Virus record (IMG/VR): IMGVR_UViG_3300010297_000014
Location: 1-38,009 of that record
From: a virus
Reading direction: 5' to 3' (one strand)
DNA length: 38,009 nt
Shown in pieces: positions 16,339 to 23,515 of the stretch. A program made the translations under genes and the position numbers. Position 1 is the first letter of the stretch. Each line of letters begins with the position of its first letter. The notes beneath the pieces are model-generated. The model made no database searches and had not been told where the DNA came from. It saw nothing but the letters and a program-made list of their open reading frames with translations.

Positions 16339-16750
16339 CCTTTAGACTTTTCAATAACATTTTCTGCAGATCTGCAGTTGTCATTAACAATCCACCATTT
16401 CCGTTTGAAGCAGGCCCTTGCGAATTATCATCTGTATTAATGTTCTTTTTCTTTTGTTGAAGATCCATTAGACGATCAGTAATATCGGCAGTGTTCTTTA
16501 ACATGTTAGATAATACCTCAAACGCTCGAGGATGTTCAGCATCTTCAGCTAAAGCAATTAGCGTAGCTAAAGCTGAGGTTGAATCATTTATTAGTTGCTT
16601 ATATGTTTTACGGGAAAATTCATAATCATCTTCAATATCTCGTTGATCATCGGTTAAACCCAACTTATCATGTTTGACATCTTTTTGATGTTTATTTAAT
16701 CCAGCATTTAGTTTTTCTAAAATATCTTCTCTTTTATCATTCATCATCAT
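16322..16750 (-). CDS. 16: Terminase small subunit gp16
   Basis: Regulates gp17 and recognises viral DNA. The 142-residue protein is helical and charged; the central YEFSRKTYKQLINDSTSALA and ALAEDAEHPRAFEVLSNMLK segments (about 43-87) form the coiled-coil hairpin typical of T4-type small terminases. T4 gp16 is 164 aa. The frame starts with three consecutive ATGs (16750, 16747, 16744) overlapping the end of gene 15; which one is used cannot be decided. Gene 17 overlaps its 3' end. Confidence 0.92.
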   Translation of the reverse strand: MMMNDKREDILEKLNAGLNKHQKDVKHDKLGLTDDQRDIEDDYEFSRKTYKQLINDSTSALATLIALAEDAEHPRAFEVLSNMLKNTADITDRLMDLQQKKKNINTDDNSQGPASNGNGGLLMTTADLQKMLLKSLKDDTEK

Positions 16751-17714
16751 TTAAATAATCATGGTATACGAATATAGTATCATCTACATTACTAGGTGGT
16801 GCATCAATAGTCACAGTTGCGGTGCTATATCCAGATCCTCCATCTGTAACTTCTATAGAAACGACCTGCGAATCATCAAGAGTTGCAACAGCGGTTGCAC
16901 CTACACCGTCACCAGTAATAGTTACATTAGGCACAGACGTATACCCTGCACCTTCTTCAGTAATATTAATAGATTCAATTACGCTGCTATTAATTACAGC
17001 ACTCGCCTCAGCCTGCACAGGTATAACTGTGTGTGTAAGAGTTTTCATAGTTTCTAATGAATCTGTATCGTTAAAATTAACAATGGCTGTTTTGATTTGA
17101 GCAGTATTAGTTACTGGACCATAATAACGAGCCTTTAACTCAAATCCTAATGTATATAACACAGCTTTCCGTGAAAGGAAATCACCTTCATATTCTTCAG
17201 CTGGGCTAACACTCTGCAGGGTGATTGATACATCATCTTTCACATTGTCTAAATCGCCTAAGCTTTTAATTGTAACATTATAATCAGGCTGAAAATACGG
17301 TACGATTTGCTCTAATATCTGAAGTGCATCATCTGATTTATTTGCCAAAATGTTTAAATCAATATTTAAACGGTATGGTGCATATGTTCTAATATTAGCC
17401 CTATTAGTGCCAGCAGTATTTGTATGTGCAATTCTGTTATACTTATTCTGTTTGGTATTACTATCATATGAAAATCCTGTAATTTCAAATGATAAGCGTG
17501 GTAATTTTATAGCAATTTGATTTTCGGATATATCAGATTGTTGATCTAATCGTGCTAAAAACTTTTCCTTCGGGCCATATGCTAAAGGTACTCTAATAGT
17601 ATTTAATACTTTACCATTCGTATCTTTTTTCTGTATTTCAATATCATTAAATAGTGTACCGAATACAGATATTAATTTACGAGTAGTTGCGTGATAAAAA
17701 TAATCGCCTAACAT
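16737..17714 (-). CDS. 15: Tail terminator / sheath stabiliser gp15
   Basis: Caps the tail and joins it to the neck. I chose the ATG at 17714 (325 codons): it makes a TAATG overlap with gene 14, has GGAGAAG at good spacing, and gives MLGDYFYHATTRK, matching the T4 start MFGYFYN. The upstream in-frame start at 17729 is GTG. T4-like landmarks are QILEQIVPYFQPDYNVTIK and FLSRKAVLYTLGFEL. The last 80 residues are extra compared with T4 (272 aa) and contain a GYTSxPxVTITGxGxGA-type beta module (about 246-306) also found in gp8 of this phage. Confidence 0.93.
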   Translation of the reverse strand: MLGDYFYHATTRKLISVFGTLFNDIEIQKKDTNGKVLNTIRVPLAYGPKEKFLARLDQQSDISENQIAIKLPRLSFEITGFSYDSNTKQNKYNRIAHTNTAGTNRANIRTYAPYRLNIDLNILANKSDDALQILEQIVPYFQPDYNVTIKSLGDLDNVKDDVSITLQSVSPAEEYEGDFLSRKAVLYTLGFELKARYYGPVTNTAQIKTAIVNFNDTDSLETMKTLTHTVIPVQAEASAVINSSVIESINITEEGAGYTSVPNVTITGDGVGATAVATLDDSQVVSIEVTDGGSGYSTATVTIDAPPSNVDDTIFVYHDYLNDDE

Positions 17715-18601
17715 TATACTTCTCCCCACGGATTATTCTCAGTGAAGTCTATAATAGTATCACCTTCTGTTTCAAATTCGGGATTTTGTGCCGCATCATC
17801 ATTGACAAAACTATCATCATCAACTACTGTAATATCTAATGATGTAGCAGAATCTAAACCAACTAATGGTAATTCAGAAGATACTATAAATGATGATGCA
17901 GAATCATCTGAAGCTGTTATATTAACAACTGTGATAGTATCTGCATCTTTAGCACCCACTTCAGCTTCAACATATGTAGATGTATCGATATACTGCTGTA
18001 CTCTTTCTCCTACCTCATATGTATTACCATTTGAATCTAAATCAATTGTTAATACTGTGGCATTAGCAAATTTACGTTCAATATCATCAATGTCTTCAAT
18101 ATCTGTATCAAATACTTGATCATTATATTCGAATAATTCAGCCTGTAGTCTATAAATTGGCAAATCTTGTAATTGATAAAACGGTCTTTGTGCTTCAACT
18201 AATTTGATTTCAAAGAATGATTTAGACATTGGAACATAAATCAAATCCCCTTCGGAAGGCTGGAATGTTTTTAAATCGCCCTTTTCATATGATCCTACAC
18301 TATTTTCCCATTCTCGTTTAGCCACAATGAAGGTTGCTTGATCACGTAGTTCTAAACCAAACTTTGAAAGTAGAACACCTTCACCTTCAAACCCATCAAC
18401 ATTTTCAACATACATTTCGATAACATATGCATCATCAAAGCGAGCAGCATCCTCTTCATTTAGTATAGTATCACGGGAAACTATACTACGGGGTAGATAA
18501 TACATGTCTATCCCATATATCTTTATAGCCTCGATTATTAAATCTTCATATAATCGTTGCTCTGGTCTGTGTCCTTCACTAAAGTATAAATTTCTTGGCA
18601 T
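17714..18601 (-). CDS. 14: Neck protein gp14
   Basis: Head-completion and neck protein that binds gp13 and the tail. The ATG at 18601 (295 codons, MPRNLYFSEG) is preferred over an in-frame TTG at 18613 because GGAT precedes it. Family landmarks are IIEAIKIYGIDMYYLPR, FGLELRDQATFIVAKREWE and GDLIYVPMSKSFFEIKLVE with PFYQLQDLPIYRLQAE. T4 gp14 is 256 aa; the extra length is an acidic, Ser/Thr/Val-rich C-terminal third. It overlaps gene 13 and abuts gene 15 within a 13-17 operon. Confidence 0.93.
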   Translation of the reverse strand: MPRNLYFSEGHRPEQRLYEDLIIEAIKIYGIDMYYLPRSIVSRDTILNEEDAARFDDAYVIEMYVENVDGFEGEGVLLSKFGLELRDQATFIVAKREWENSVGSYEKGDLKTFQPSEGDLIYVPMSKSFFEIKLVEAQRPFYQLQDLPIYRLQAELFEYNDQVFDTDIEDIDDIERKFANATVLTIDLDSNGNTYEVGERVQQYIDTSTYVEAEVGAKDADTITVVNITASDDSASSFIVSSELPLVGLDSATSLDITVVDDDSFVNDDAAQNPEFETEGDTIIDFTENNPWGEV

Positions 18602-18605
18602 AATA

Positions 18606-19349
18606 TTATCCAATAAAAAAATCTGCTGGTTCAGAAAATCGTTCAGTTGCTTCTTCCTTTAATCTTTCCAAATCAGTTAATGCTTCTTCATAGATAACTT
18701 GACCATTCATAGTCACACCGCCTGGAAGTTGCATACCTTCGAATTTCTTAAGATTAGTTCCCCACTGCTTCTTGAGTAATGCAGTCAAATATTCTTTTAA
18801 AAATTCATCATTATATACATCAGGATATGCATTTGGATCTAGTGTTTCATAACCATCTACAATTACATAATCACCTTCCTTTATATCTGTACCCCATTCT
18901 AAATCGATCATTACACGATTCATATGACGATTAAATCTAATTGAAGGTTTGCCAACTAACTTTTCATCGACTAAAGACAGATACTGTTGAGTCATGTCAT
19001 ATGTAGTCAAATCCATACAGCCAAAGGATATGATATCATTTGCAAACATTTGATATTTACTAGAAAACCATCCGCCTTCTGTTAATTGACCTCCCATTGG
19101 GAAAATACGTCTAACAAAAAGCATTGAATCAGGAACATCAATATATTTGTTATTAACGTCAGTAGCTGAAACCTGATGTTTTCTATATGTACGAATTACA
19201 GAATCAGAAGTCCAATTCTGAAAAAACTGAATTGCTTGATCTGTACGATCTTCAATTTGATCTTGATCAATATTAATTTCAAGAACGGGTGCACCTAATT
19301 CTCTTAAGCAATATTCTTGTAATTCTTGTCTAGTTGATGGAGCTGCCAT
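18606..19349 (-). CDS. 13: Neck protein gp13
   Basis: Connector protein under the portal. The 247-residue protein contains the expected RQELQEYCLRELGAPVLEIN (7-26) and DQIEDRTDQAIQFFQNW segments, SFGCMDLTTYDMTQQYLS and the C-terminal LLKKQWGTNLKKFEGMQLPG. T4 gp13 is 309 aa. It is the first gene of the 13-14-15-16-17 overlapping operon. The ATG has no Shine-Dalgarno and stands 5 nt after the second of two tandem late boxes. Confidence 0.94.
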   Translation of the reverse strand: MAAPSTRQELQEYCLRELGAPVLEINIDQDQIEDRTDQAIQFFQNWTSDSVIRTYRKHQVSATDVNNKYIDVPDSMLFVRRIFPMGGQLTEGGWFSSKYQMFANDIISFGCMDLTTYDMTQQYLSLVDEKLVGKPSIRFNRHMNRVMIDLEWGTDIKEGDYVIVDGYETLDPNAYPDVYNDEFLKEYLTALLKKQWGTNLKKFEGMQLPGGVTMNGQVIYEEALTDLERLKEEATERFSEPADFFIG

Positions 19350-19354
19350 ATATC

Positions 19355-19370
19355 TATTTATATATTTATA
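19355..19370 (-). promoter_or_regulatory. Tandem double late promoter for genes 13-17
   Basis: Two abutting exact copies of TATAAATA (19363-19370 and 19355-19362); the proximal copy is 5 nt before the gene 13 ATG. The distal copy contains the stop codon of the sulfotransferase gene (19366-19368). Confidence 0.85.
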
Positions 19371-20163
19371 GATTATTTATCCAGTCAAACTTTTCCCTCA
19401 AAACTTCTGATATATTGCGTCCTAATACATTATTCCAATCAGGTTTTACTGGTTTAATATCTGAGCGAATAGTATGATCACCATAGGGCCAACCTAGTTC
19501 ATGCTCATGAGTATATTGCTCAATATTATTAAAATCATGAGTTGGGCCATCTATTTCGAGATACTTCCAAATATTTTGCATAGTTGAAGTAGGGTCTTGT
19601 ATAAGATCTTCCATGTGTACAAAATGAACTTTATCTTTATATAATCGAACCAATTCATGAAGACGTTGTATAGCAATTCCAATTGGTGGGTGTTGAAGCC
19701 AAAACTGTACGCGACCTTCAACAGTTTGAATTGCAGCAGTATCCTGTTGATTCATTTCAAGTTGAAATTCGGGATGCTTTTGATATTTTTTTTCCATTGA
19801 TGATATTACACCCCTAATATCACGAATAGGAACAATCATCTTACCATTTGGAAATAATTTAAAGAATAATCCTGCACTACCAATCCATGATCTACATTTA
19901 TCGGCAATTATTGATCGATCTGTAATTTTATTATTGGCATTAATTAAGCCCGCGCGCATAAAATCATACCATAGATTCTCACCATCATTAGGATTAGTTA
20001 ATGAACGAAATTCATCGGTCTTAAAATACGCCTTTGATAGGTACATGATTTCATGTAGACCGCTGGTTGCAGTTGAATGTACAAGCGGATGTTGTGCTAG
20101 CACATTCATCAATAATGTAGACCCAGACCTAGGAAGGCCTGACACAGGTATTATAGTTTTCAT
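19366..20163 (-). CDS. PAPS-dependent sulfotransferase family protein
   Basis: Predicted to move a sulfuryl group from PAPS to a hydroxyl or amine of a sugar or protein. The 265-residue protein opens with the 5'-phosphosulfate-binding loop SGLPRSGSTLL (8-18) and has the 3'-phosphate-binding motif VPIRDIRGVISSM (R114, S121/S122) at the usual distance. Later landmarks are RVQFWLQH, VHFVHMEDLIQDP (typical of Sulfotransfer_1/3 families) and a tryptophan-rich end. No signal peptide. It is not a virion gene in T4. It stands alone, with its own late box 5 nt before the ATG, between the adsorption cassette and gene 13. The acceptor is unknown; candidates are fibre proteins or a host glycan. Confidence 0.88.
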   Translation of the reverse strand: MKTIIPVSGLPRSGSTLLMNVLAQHPLVHSTATSGLHEIMYLSKAYFKTDEFRSLTNPNDGENLWYDFMRAGLINANNKITDRSIIADKCRSWIGSAGLFFKLFPNGKMIVPIRDIRGVISSMEKKYQKHPEFQLEMNQQDTAAIQTVEGRVQFWLQHPPIGIAIQRLHELVRLYKDKVHFVHMEDLIQDPTSTMQNIWKYLEIDGPTHDFNNIEQYTHEHELGWPYGDHTIRSDIKPVKPDWNNVLGRNISEVLREKFDWINNL

Positions 20164-20176: not shown

Positions 20177-21415
20177 TTAAGAAAAATCAGTAAATCCAGA
20201 TAAATCAGCCTCAGTCAATGTATATCCAGTTCCACCATTTCCAGCAGCAGTATCTGAGTCAGCAATCATTTGATTAAGATCGGATATAAAGGGAGTGACA
20301 AATGTTCCTGATCCACCACCCCCATATGTCCATACTGTAAGCAAAACAAGTTCTGGGCCATTACCTAGATCAAGAATCAAGAAGGCTGGATTGCTGGAAT
20401 CATATAAAATAATATCTTCATAAAACTCTTGTCTATTTGAATCAATTGGAGCAGTGAATGCTATTCGTTTAGGATCTAAAGTTGAGATCGAATATAAATC
20501 ACCAACCAAAGCTTTTTCTTCTTGATCCAACCGCAATGCAGCAGCACGACCTTTCACCAGTTCTACAATATAGTTTGAGTAATTGGATGGAAGAACTTTA
20601 CACGGGGTAATGTTTGCTGGTAAATCCTGATCTAAACAATAGATAACCAAATCTGGATAGTAAGGATTATAATCTGGATGAATGATTCTAGATAGAACTG
20701 TTCTTTCATAAACAGTGTTATTTCCATCCTGTGAAACAAAATAAACCTTTGTTCCAACTCCGTAAGTATAATGTGCAGAAGCTAAAACATGCCGTGGGGT
20801 GACTAGTGTTCCAGCCTTCTTATTATTCGAATTGGAGTTGGATGGTGAAATACAGGTTAGGTCTATATCAGAACACCATACATCTGGATTACGAGTATAT
20901 ATATCATTCGTATGATCTTGAGATGAGTATATACTACCATTAGCGGATAGAGTCTTTCCAGCAATTCTCGAATCTATATTATCACAAGCGTCTTTTCCTA
21001 AAGAACCAGAAACAAAAGAACCAGATAGAAATTGAGTGGTTGGAGTAGATTCAGCTACATTCACTGAAGTCTTCTTACGATAACCGTCAACTTCTACAAT
21101 TATGTTAGTCGTTCCATCTGATACCTTTATTACTTGCCCTTGGGAATCTACCGTAGCTATTGATTCGTCTTCACTAATAAAAGTTGGAAATGATATAAAA
21201 TCGTTTGTAAGAATATTGATCTGATAATTATTATAACTAGTTGGAGATAATTGAATATATTCAAGTATATCATTTACTTGTTGAGTTGATTCACCACCAG
21301 CAGAAGCAATGACGGGAATAGGTATAGATTGAAGAGTAAAATCCTTATTTTGATTTATGAGTGACTTAAAAGACCTAAGCGTAGGTGCAGATAATGACTG
21401 ACGAATACTTACCAT
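20177..21415 (-). CDS. Virion-region protein: Ig-like (BIG2) plus trypsin-like serine protease domain
   Basis: 412 residues. Residues about 65-120 match the bacterial Ig-like BIG2 pattern (SEDESIATVDSQGQV ... VNV). From about 200 on, a chymotrypsin-fold protease is visible: AGTLVTPRHVLASAHY with H215, PYYPDLVIYCLD with D255, and YDSSNPAFLI with S340 where GDSGNP would be expected, followed by ELVLLTVWTYGGGGSGTFV, the usual strand pair after the nucleophile. The triad is present but the Gly residues flanking Ser are Tyr and Ser. There is no signal peptide. The gene overlaps the DUF4376 gene by 7 bases and lies next to fibre genes. A tail-associated protease acting on host surface proteins, or a self-processing factor, is inferred; activity is unproven. 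Confidence 0.72.
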   Translation of the reverse strand: MVSIRQSLSAPTLRSFKSLINQNKDFTLQSIPIPVIASAGGESTQQVNDILEYIQLSPTSYNNYQINILTNDFISFPTFISEDESIATVDSQGQVIKVSDGTTNIIVEVDGYRKKTSVNVAESTPTTQFLSGSFVSGSLGKDACDNIDSRIAGKTLSANGSIYSSQDHTNDIYTRNPDVWCSDIDLTCISPSNSNSNNKKAGTLVTPRHVLASAHYTYGVGTKVYFVSQDGNNTVYERTVLSRIIHPDYNPYYPDLVIYCLDQDLPANITPCKVLPSNYSNYIVELVKGRAAALRLDQEEKALVGDLYSISTLDPKRIAFTAPIDSNRQEFYEDIILYDSSNPAFLILDLGNGPELVLLTVWTYGGGGSGTFVTPFISDLNQMIADSDTAAGNGGTGYTLTEADLSGFTDFS

Positions 21416-21912
21416 TGAATCTGATTAAGCTCTTGAATTGAATTTGCGTTCTCAACAGCTTCTACTAGAATCTTTCTTTTAGTAAATGCTGCTACCTTTC
21501 TTGCAATACCCTCATTTAGAGCTGTCTCAAATTGTTCTCTTGTGATATCTCTAAATATACCATCAGCACACTTATAACCAATAAATGTTTGTTCGGGAGC
21601 AAGCATCTCAACAAGTGTCTTAACATCAATGATTGCCTCAATGTGTGTTCTGAATGGGATACCATCTGATGTTATCAAATCTGACATATACTCAGTGTTA
21701 CAAAAATCAACAATTTGTCTTATCTTCTTAGCTTTTAATATCTCACTTTGTTCTACCCATCTTTCTTGTTGTTTTACAAATTTATTATATTGAATATATC
21801 CATTATCATTCGCATATTGAAATGGTAATTGTGTATCGTTTTTTTCTTTGATGATATCATATCTTTCACCATCTTTATAAAACCTACCTTCATTGTTTTG
21901 TGTTACTTTCAT
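21409..21912 (-). CDS. DUF4376-like tail-associated protein
   Basis: 167 residues. The C-terminal part (from about KKIRQIVDFCNTEYMSDLIT to the end) has the DUF4376 pattern: a helix, a short beta segment with a GIPF-type turn, a FIGYKCADGIFRDITREQF segment, then two helices ending NSIQELNQIQW. DUF4376 proteins lie beside or within phage tail-fibre genes and some resemble fibre-assembly proteins. Here the gene sits directly after the LRR fibre gene (1-base gap) and overlaps the protease-like gene, so a role in assembling or tipping that fibre is plausible. No late box of its own. Confidence 0.6.
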   Translation of the reverse strand: MKVTQNNEGRFYKDGERYDIIKEKNDTQLPFQYANDNGYIQYNKFVKQQERWVEQSEILKAKKIRQIVDFCNTEYMSDLITSDGIPFRTHIEAIIDVKTLVEMLAPEQTFIGYKCADGIFRDITREQFETALNEGIARKVAAFTKRKILVEAVENANSIQELNQIQW

Positions 21913-21913
21913 A

Positions 21914-23515
21914 TTATAAATCCTTAATTACAGTTATTCCTGTTTTTCCTCCAATAGTCTGCCCAGCACCAGCAGACCATGTTCCATCAGATGACTGTGC
22001 ATGAAGTGTTGTGATACCTGTGTTAACAAAACAATTTGTTGCAGCATCTATAATTGTTTTTGTTATATAACAATCAACTGTAGTAAGTCCAGAACAATAA
22101 TAAAATGCACTGCTTCCAATACTTGTTACAGAATTTGGTATAGTTAATGATCCAGTAAATCCATAACAATTAGAAAATACATAGTTTCCAATACTTGTTA
22201 CGGAATTTGGTATAGTTAATGATCCAGTAAATCCAGAACAATAAGAAAATGCATAGCTTCCAATACTTGTTACGGAATTTGGTATAGTTAATGATCCAGT
22301 AAATCCTAAACAACTGGCAAATGCACCGTCTGCAATACTTGTTACAGAATTTGGTATAGTTAATGATCCAGTAAATCCAGTACAATAAGAAAATGCATAG
22401 TTTCCAATCGTTGTTACAGAATTTGGTATAGTTAATGATCCAGTAAATCCAGTACAAGAGTTAAATGCATTGCTTCCAATACTTGTTACGGAATTTGGTA
22501 TAGTTAATGATCCAGTAAATCCAGTACAACTGTAAAATGCACTGCTTCCAATACTTGTTACGGAATTTGGTATAGTTAATGATCCAGTAAATCCAGTACA
22601 ACCATAAAATGCACCGTCTGAAATACTTGTTATAGAATTTGGTATAGTTAATGATCCAGTAAATCCAGAACAATAAGAAAATGCATAGTTTCCAATACTT
22701 GTTACAGAATTTGGTATAGTTAATGATCCAGTAAATCCTGAACAACTGGCAAATGCACCTTCTGCAATACTTGTTACAGAACTTCCAATTGATAAGCTAG
22801 TAAGTCCAGTACAATAATAAAATGCATAGCTTCCAATCGTTGTTACAGAATTTGGTATAGTTAATGATCCAGTAAGTCCATTACAATTGGAAAATGCATA
22901 GGTTCCAATACTTGTTACAGAATTTGGCATAGTTAAACTAGTCCACAGAGTTTCAGATCCAAATTTATTATCATCTATTTTCTGTGGAAATCCAACAGCA
23001 GGTATATTAAGCGCAGTAGCTGATTGTGTTGGTGAGGTATCTAATACTCCAACCCCACTAGAGAATGTCCAATTCCAATCATCTATAGTTAATTTTTCAC
23101 CATCGTTATGTTTAGTTACAATTTGATTTCCACCAGTGGTAACACCATCACCAATAGCTAACCTTCCATCAACTTGACCTAGAACATTGTCACCTAGAAC
23201 TTGACCTGTTGCATCAGCAAGTTCTATGTTGGCTACAAATACACCATCTGTTGAGGTGAGAATTAGTTCCCAATCAGTATCTGTTGCTCCGACCTTCTTA
23301 TAAAATTTTGGTGGTGACTCTGTATTATATCCTTCTGTACCGATAGGTGCAGTATAGCCGGTTATTGAAGGATCGATGACGAGCAATTCTATAAAATCTT
23401 GTTTTACTAAATATAATTCATCGAAATTATCATTGACCTTATCCATTCCATCCCGCAATGAATCACCGGTACCATCATTAGGCACTGCACCAATATTTAA
23501 AGTTTGTTTTGCCAT
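21914..23515 (-). CDS. Tail fibre with BspA-type leucine-rich repeats
   Basis: 533 residues. The N-terminus ([20 protein letters not shown], then [10 protein letters not shown]; 6-35) is the virion-anchor type also used by the gene at 36844-37647. Residues 193-479 are twelve LRR_5 (BspA/TpLRR) repeats of 24 residues (one of 23), consensus [19 protein letters not shown]-x-GFTG, each with one conserved Cys. A short non-repeat cap ends [19 protein letters not shown]. Such LRRs bind proteins or glycans in bacterial and protist adhesins. The late box is 5 nt upstream. The gene heads a unit with the DUF4376 and protease genes. Receptor-binding fibre is inferred from anchor, repeats and position. 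Confidence 0.82.
22079..22939 (-). repeat. Twelve tandem 72-bp repeats encoding the LRRs
   Basis: The core GAATTTGGTATAGTTAATGA (plus strand) recurs every 72 bp (for example 22131, 22203, 22275, 22347), with one 69-bp step between 22779 and 22848. Central copies are nearly identical at DNA level while the block coding the variable face (such as SYAFSYC, DGAFYGC, SNAFNSC) differs. Outer copies, mainly those toward 22939, are more diverged. Copy-number change by recombination is expected. Confidence 0.95.

Follow-up and report, generated by a model that had tools for sequence, protein, structure and literature searches.

Phages carry enzymes on their particles that remove barriers at the host surface. 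The passages on virion enzymes in one review describe carbohydrate enzymes together with the poly-gamma-glutamate peptidase of Bacillus phage NIT1, and mention no trypsin-like virion protease (PMC5380687). No report of such a protease was found in a limited literature search either. The protein described here, in the role proposed below, resembles these depolymerases as a phage enzyme that would remove a surface barrier; it differs in that the enzymes of those passages act on polysaccharide or poly-gamma-glutamate (PMC5380687). By fold, its closest described counterparts are the S1 peptidases of the PA clan. In these enzymes, Gly193 gives one NH of the oxyanion hole, and a side chain at this position usually costs activity. 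By genomic position, the counterpart is the region of phage T4 that holds gp9-12 and wac; no protease domain is known in T4 gp15 or in that region.

The DNA analysed here (the window) is a 38,009-nt T4-like phage stretch. Its minus strand carries homologues of gp46/47, gp55 and UvsY, a UvsW-like helicase, homologues of the gp23, gp20, gp18, gp15, gp14 and gp13 types, and a terminase identified by its sequence and place; baseplate- and tail-type proteins lie further up. The protease gene (20177-21415, minus strand, as are all features below) starts with ATG and encodes 412 aa. Four genes lie between the fibre genes and gp13: a BspA-type LRR fibre with a T4 gp9/10-like N-terminus (21914-23515; PF13306, E 1.3e-78; PF07880, E 1.1e-8), a DUF4376 gene (21409-21912; PF14301, E 5.8e-6; tail-fibre PHROG 1348, E 5.9e-8), the protease and a sulfotransferase gene (19366-20163; PF13469, E 1.2e-18). 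The DUF4376 gene overlaps the protease gene by 7 nt, and the gene order agrees with the first-pass annotation, which had described the protease gene as coupled to it downstream of the LRR fibre gene. The sulfotransferase gene begins 13 nt downstream of the protease and is followed by genes for neck proteins like gp13 (18606-19349; PHROG 211 head-tail adaptor, E 8e-38; named gp13 by gene order) and gp14 (17714-18613; PF11649, E 3.6e-29) and for a gp15-like tail sheath stabiliser (16737-17729; PF16724, E 9.8e-73).

Several features of this neighbourhood deserve separate mention. The gp15 homologue is extended at its C-terminus by ~85 aa matching repeats of many phage structural proteins. Two unrelated kinds of sulfotransferase, Sulfotransfer_3 and galactose-3-O-sulfotransferase-like, occur within about 10 kb of, or beside, the protease gene in ~15 percent of the family loci, a share counted within the family alone (the window gene at 19366-20163 and loci L003, L070, L052, L053, L062, L086, L087, L122, L071, L075, L076, L057 and L065). 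A conserved pairing of DUF4376 and protease genes was considered and found unsupported, the profile of the window DUF4376 gene having recovered only a near-identical copy in L001. In one relative, L038, the gene before the protease matches the same tail-fibre PHROG 1348 as the window DUF4376 gene.

An Ig-like domain followed by a chymotrypsin-type domain had been claimed for this protein, and the layout was borne out. The N-terminal domain (residues 24-121, 21053-21346) is assigned as Ig-like of Big_2 type on a sub-threshold Pfam match (residues 78-116, E 0.0019; 18.6 bits, below the PF02368 cut-off of 22.8), on beta strands at about residues 27-120 of the predicted model, and on BFVD matches to phage BIG2 proteins. 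No obvious signal peptide is present in the sequence. The protease domain (residues 139-410, 20186-21001) is defined by an AlphaFold2 model (mean pLDDT 89.6, pTM 0.78) and its structure matches: residues 156-396 match S1 peptidases (thrombin, Z 18.8, rmsd 3.3 Å over 204 residues), and the best Foldseek match is activated protein C (E 1.1e-7). A close relative with an intact GDSGNP loop, L050 (63% domain identity), gave a domain model of the same fold (pLDDT 94.4; chymotrypsin, Z 18.8, rmsd 3.1 over 190 residues); its N-terminal part has no recognisable solved relative. On these predicted structures, the window protein almost certainly has a chymotrypsin fold. Just before the domain lies a moderately conserved R-I/L-x-G/N-K stretch (residues 150-154, 20954-20968), which resembles a zymogen cleavage site, has Arg in 51 of 84 family rows and begins at a helix end in the model.

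Sequence libraries were less revealing. Single-sequence scans never called the second half of the protein a trypsin, so the first-pass annotation, made from the sequence alone, had caught something that profile libraries overlook. For PF00089 (Trypsin), the window protein gave no match and two of 26 relatives gave weak ones (best E 2.6e-4). A profile built from these 26 relatives matches solved trypsins (5dk1, E 7e-4), and H215, D255, D339, S340 and P343 are common to all of them; the shared residues and the profile match together argue that the resemblance is not due to chance. By hhalign, His57, Asp102, Ser195 and Trp215 of bovine trypsin fall on H215, D255, S340 and W362, although with a single template sequence the probability is low (15.6%, E 0.0017). 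This supports the catalytic triad named in the first-pass annotation; the hhalign register is clean, whereas a sequence-profile alignment to Saccharopolyspora erythraea trypsin places the Asp off by two.

The protein thus shares with S1 peptidases the double beta-barrel fold of the predicted model, the His, Asp, Ser order, the positions of the catalytic residues relative to the strands, and a Trp362 comparable to Trp215. It differs in its low identity (11-18% among the matches listed), in lacking Cys191, in its family signature DQEEKAL, and in having YDSSNP where the S1 motif is of the GDSGGP type with Gly193 and the family norm is GDSGNP. Because it lacks the GDSG motif and falls below the Pfam cut-off, we stop short of assigning it formally to S1. 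Most likely it nevertheless works like an S1 peptidase.

Inspection of residues and codons confirmed H215, D255, S340 and the replacement of GDSG by YDSS. His215 (CAT, 20771-20773) and Asp255 (GAT, 20651-20653), equivalent to His57 and Asp102 of trypsin, are each present in 86 of 86 rows of the non-redundant family set. The nucleophile loop EDIILYDSSNP (residues 333-343, 20387-20419) places Tyr338 (TAT) at position 193, Ser340 (TCC) at 195 and Ser341 (AGC) at 196, with Asp339 encoded by GAT. In the non-redundant family alignment around S340, a comparison suggested in the first-pass annotation, this residue is Ser in 84 of 85 rows and Cys in one. All three triad residues lie outside every family search pattern, and the triad was not required by the patterns. 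The Cys row is a protein of an uncultured bacterium (isolate RUG10884; L048, 2029-2907), with GDCGDP at the nucleophile.

Gly occupies position 193 in 78 of the 85 rows, the others having Tyr (four), Phe (two) or Asn (one); at position 196, 79 rows have Gly and six have Ser. The window member carries both replacements. On a quick maximum-likelihood (ML) tree, from which seven long-branched rows were left out, each position has changed at least four times, and L051, the sister of the window on this tree, has GDSG. Judging by the codons, the Gly-to-Tyr change takes at least two base changes. Further scans for members with Tyr or Phe at position 193 gained little. Pairwise dN/dS was about 0.22 for the Phe193 pair (0.011/0.051; only 17 substitutions), 0.28 for the Tyr193 pair (0.008/0.028; only 16 substitutions) and 0.13 for the Ser196 pair (0.089/0.674); by these ratios, the altered-loop lineages are under purifying selection where it is measurable.

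The altered loop could mean that the fold has been kept for recognition and that catalysis has ended, a binding-only role that the first-pass annotation had raised. The window protein has neither Gly193 nor Gly196, and its ten-residue nucleophile block is modelled with lower confidence than that of L050 (pLDDT 82 versus 91), which is a weak sign, on the predicted model, of a disturbed loop. A decaying enzyme, however, should lose His, Asp or Ser in some lines, and none does: wherever Gly193 or Gly196 is altered, the triad is whole, and at least four independent changes of Gly193 have never been accompanied by loss of a triad residue. In addition, thrombin G193A and G193P have been solved with the inhibitor PPACK, according to the structure titles, which suggests that such a site can survive. 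We accordingly rejected a dead branch as the first choice and regard a pseudo-protease as unlikely. The intact triad, the recurrent changes at position 193 and the purifying selection argue for retuned catalysis rather than decay, and the window member, judged from its sequence and those of its relatives, is probably still catalytic. With Tyr193 and Ser196 beside a retained triad, it would likeliest be a slower or more selective enzyme, its oxyanion hole perhaps forming only on the proper substrate.

A whole-protein scan of viral contigs returned only the near-identical L001, and the family opened up when the protease domain alone was used as the query. The domain recovered 36 viral relatives and the 26-row alignment 163, of which 80 were kept, along with 12 genome loci; the family thus spans 163 viral contigs and the genomes of 12 bacteria, chiefly of Verrucomicrobiota and Planctomycetota. 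Its signature comprises W180, CISPWNS, AGTLITPRH...AAHY, PD..IG.LDSD.P, DQEEKAL (residues 297-303 of the window protein, 20507-20527), E333, GDSGNPAFLI and VWTYGG; since DQEEKAL and AGTLITPRH were in the search patterns, their conservation is biased, partly by construction. PHROG gave no match for any of 26 members, and NCBIfam returned nothing accounting for the protease domain. By its shared sequence features, this is a coherent, unnamed and divergent S1-like group. Deposited phages contain no full match to the window protein or to two relatives, the sole trace being a short match between one relative and an uncultured fosmid phage, and searches of these phages found no cultured phage with a family member. 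Two arrangements stand apart: L037 (4876-7572) has a tandem pair of protease domains in one ORF, and L102 and L131 appear, from contig coordinates, to be two different protease genes ~2.5 kb apart on one 159 kb phage contig (3300002835_000015).

The domain was present in 10 of the 195 genomes sampled from the phylum of a Kiritimatiellae MAG (seeds G009 and G001 included), in 2 of 199 Planctomycetota (seed G007 included) and in 1 of 198 from the phylum of a Bacteroidales MAG (seed G003 included). Four MAG relatives, mostly from Verrucomicrobiota and Planctomycetota (L040, L044, L046, L047), share the domain at 38-46% identity to the window with the triad intact; unlike the window protein, they lie on bacterial contigs, have signal-peptide-like N-termini and keep Gly193 and Gly196. 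Since several bacterial members begin with such a stretch and resemble secreted proteases, adsorption need not be the ancestral role.

The first-pass annotation had placed the gene in a virion cassette, and its place after the fibre genes and before gp13, in the slot corresponding to the T4 region, supports this, as do fusions in relatives. In L088, a gp15 sheath stabiliser (PF16724, E 4.5e-13) and the protease share one 646-aa ORF; in L035, a baseplate-wedge domain (PF23786, E 5.4e-9) is joined to the protease in a protein of 1454 aa; and in L099 and L116, fn3 and BspA-LRR repeats are fused to it. L015 has a collagen-like N-terminus and L050 a Pro-Glu linker. In four further loci (L003, L011, L017, L117), the protease lies ahead of homologues of the window gp13, gp14, gp15, TerS and TerL genes, and in a Puniceicoccaceae MAG (L038), it is flanked by genes for a tail fibre and a tape measure. 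Location in a fibre cassette does not in itself make a gene product part of the virion, and a late-operon protease could work in the cell or at lysis, for example on host envelope proteins; in one lineage, an amidase/endolysin gene is close by (L066, +1). The gp15 and baseplate-wedge fusions, the fibre-type N-termini and the absence of an obvious signal peptide from the window protein make this very unlikely. By joining the domain to tail and fibre proteins, the natural fusions point towards virion display, and there is good reason to believe that the window protease is attached to the particle.

An attached protease could also serve assembly, making a single cut in phage fibre or neck proteins or in itself, as in chaperone-shedding fibres. 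The gene adjoins the fibre genes and overlaps one, a slow site with Tyr193 would fit an enzyme that cuts only once, and the R-I/L-x-G-K stretch resembles a zymogen cleavage site. The Arg of that site, however, is not invariant, the place of the domain within the ORF varies among relatives, and the domain persists across loci whose neighbouring genes are very different, so that no conserved phage substrate is seen. Self-processing thus seems improbable and, given activity, a host-surface substrate is slightly favoured.

The best explanation, to which we give about an even chance, is a virion-attached, S1-like serine protease of the chymotrypsin fold that is displayed on the tail or neck and cleaves a protein of the host surface at adsorption. 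The Ig-like N-terminus would dock the protein to the particle, and the protease domain, carried by the tail or neck, would face outward and cut a protein of the host envelope or surface layer, helping the tail to reach its receptor or the membrane. A broader reading is tentative and, in our judgement, rather doubtful: chymotrypsin-like proteases displayed on virions might form a widespread family in uncultured phages and, carried by several tail architectures on neck, baseplate or fibres, cut host surface proteins, with repeated replacement of the oxyanion Gly by an aromatic residue making the enzyme substrate-gated.

The recurrent natural change of Gly193 to an aromatic residue offers a ready test of how far the S1 oxyanion hole tolerates alteration without loss of function. 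The enzymes for which phage particles are known cut sugars and the cell wall, and a common protein-cutting domain on the tail would be a different route past the host surface. If true, this hints at hosts with proteinaceous coats, perhaps among the Verrucomicrobiota or Planctomycetota.
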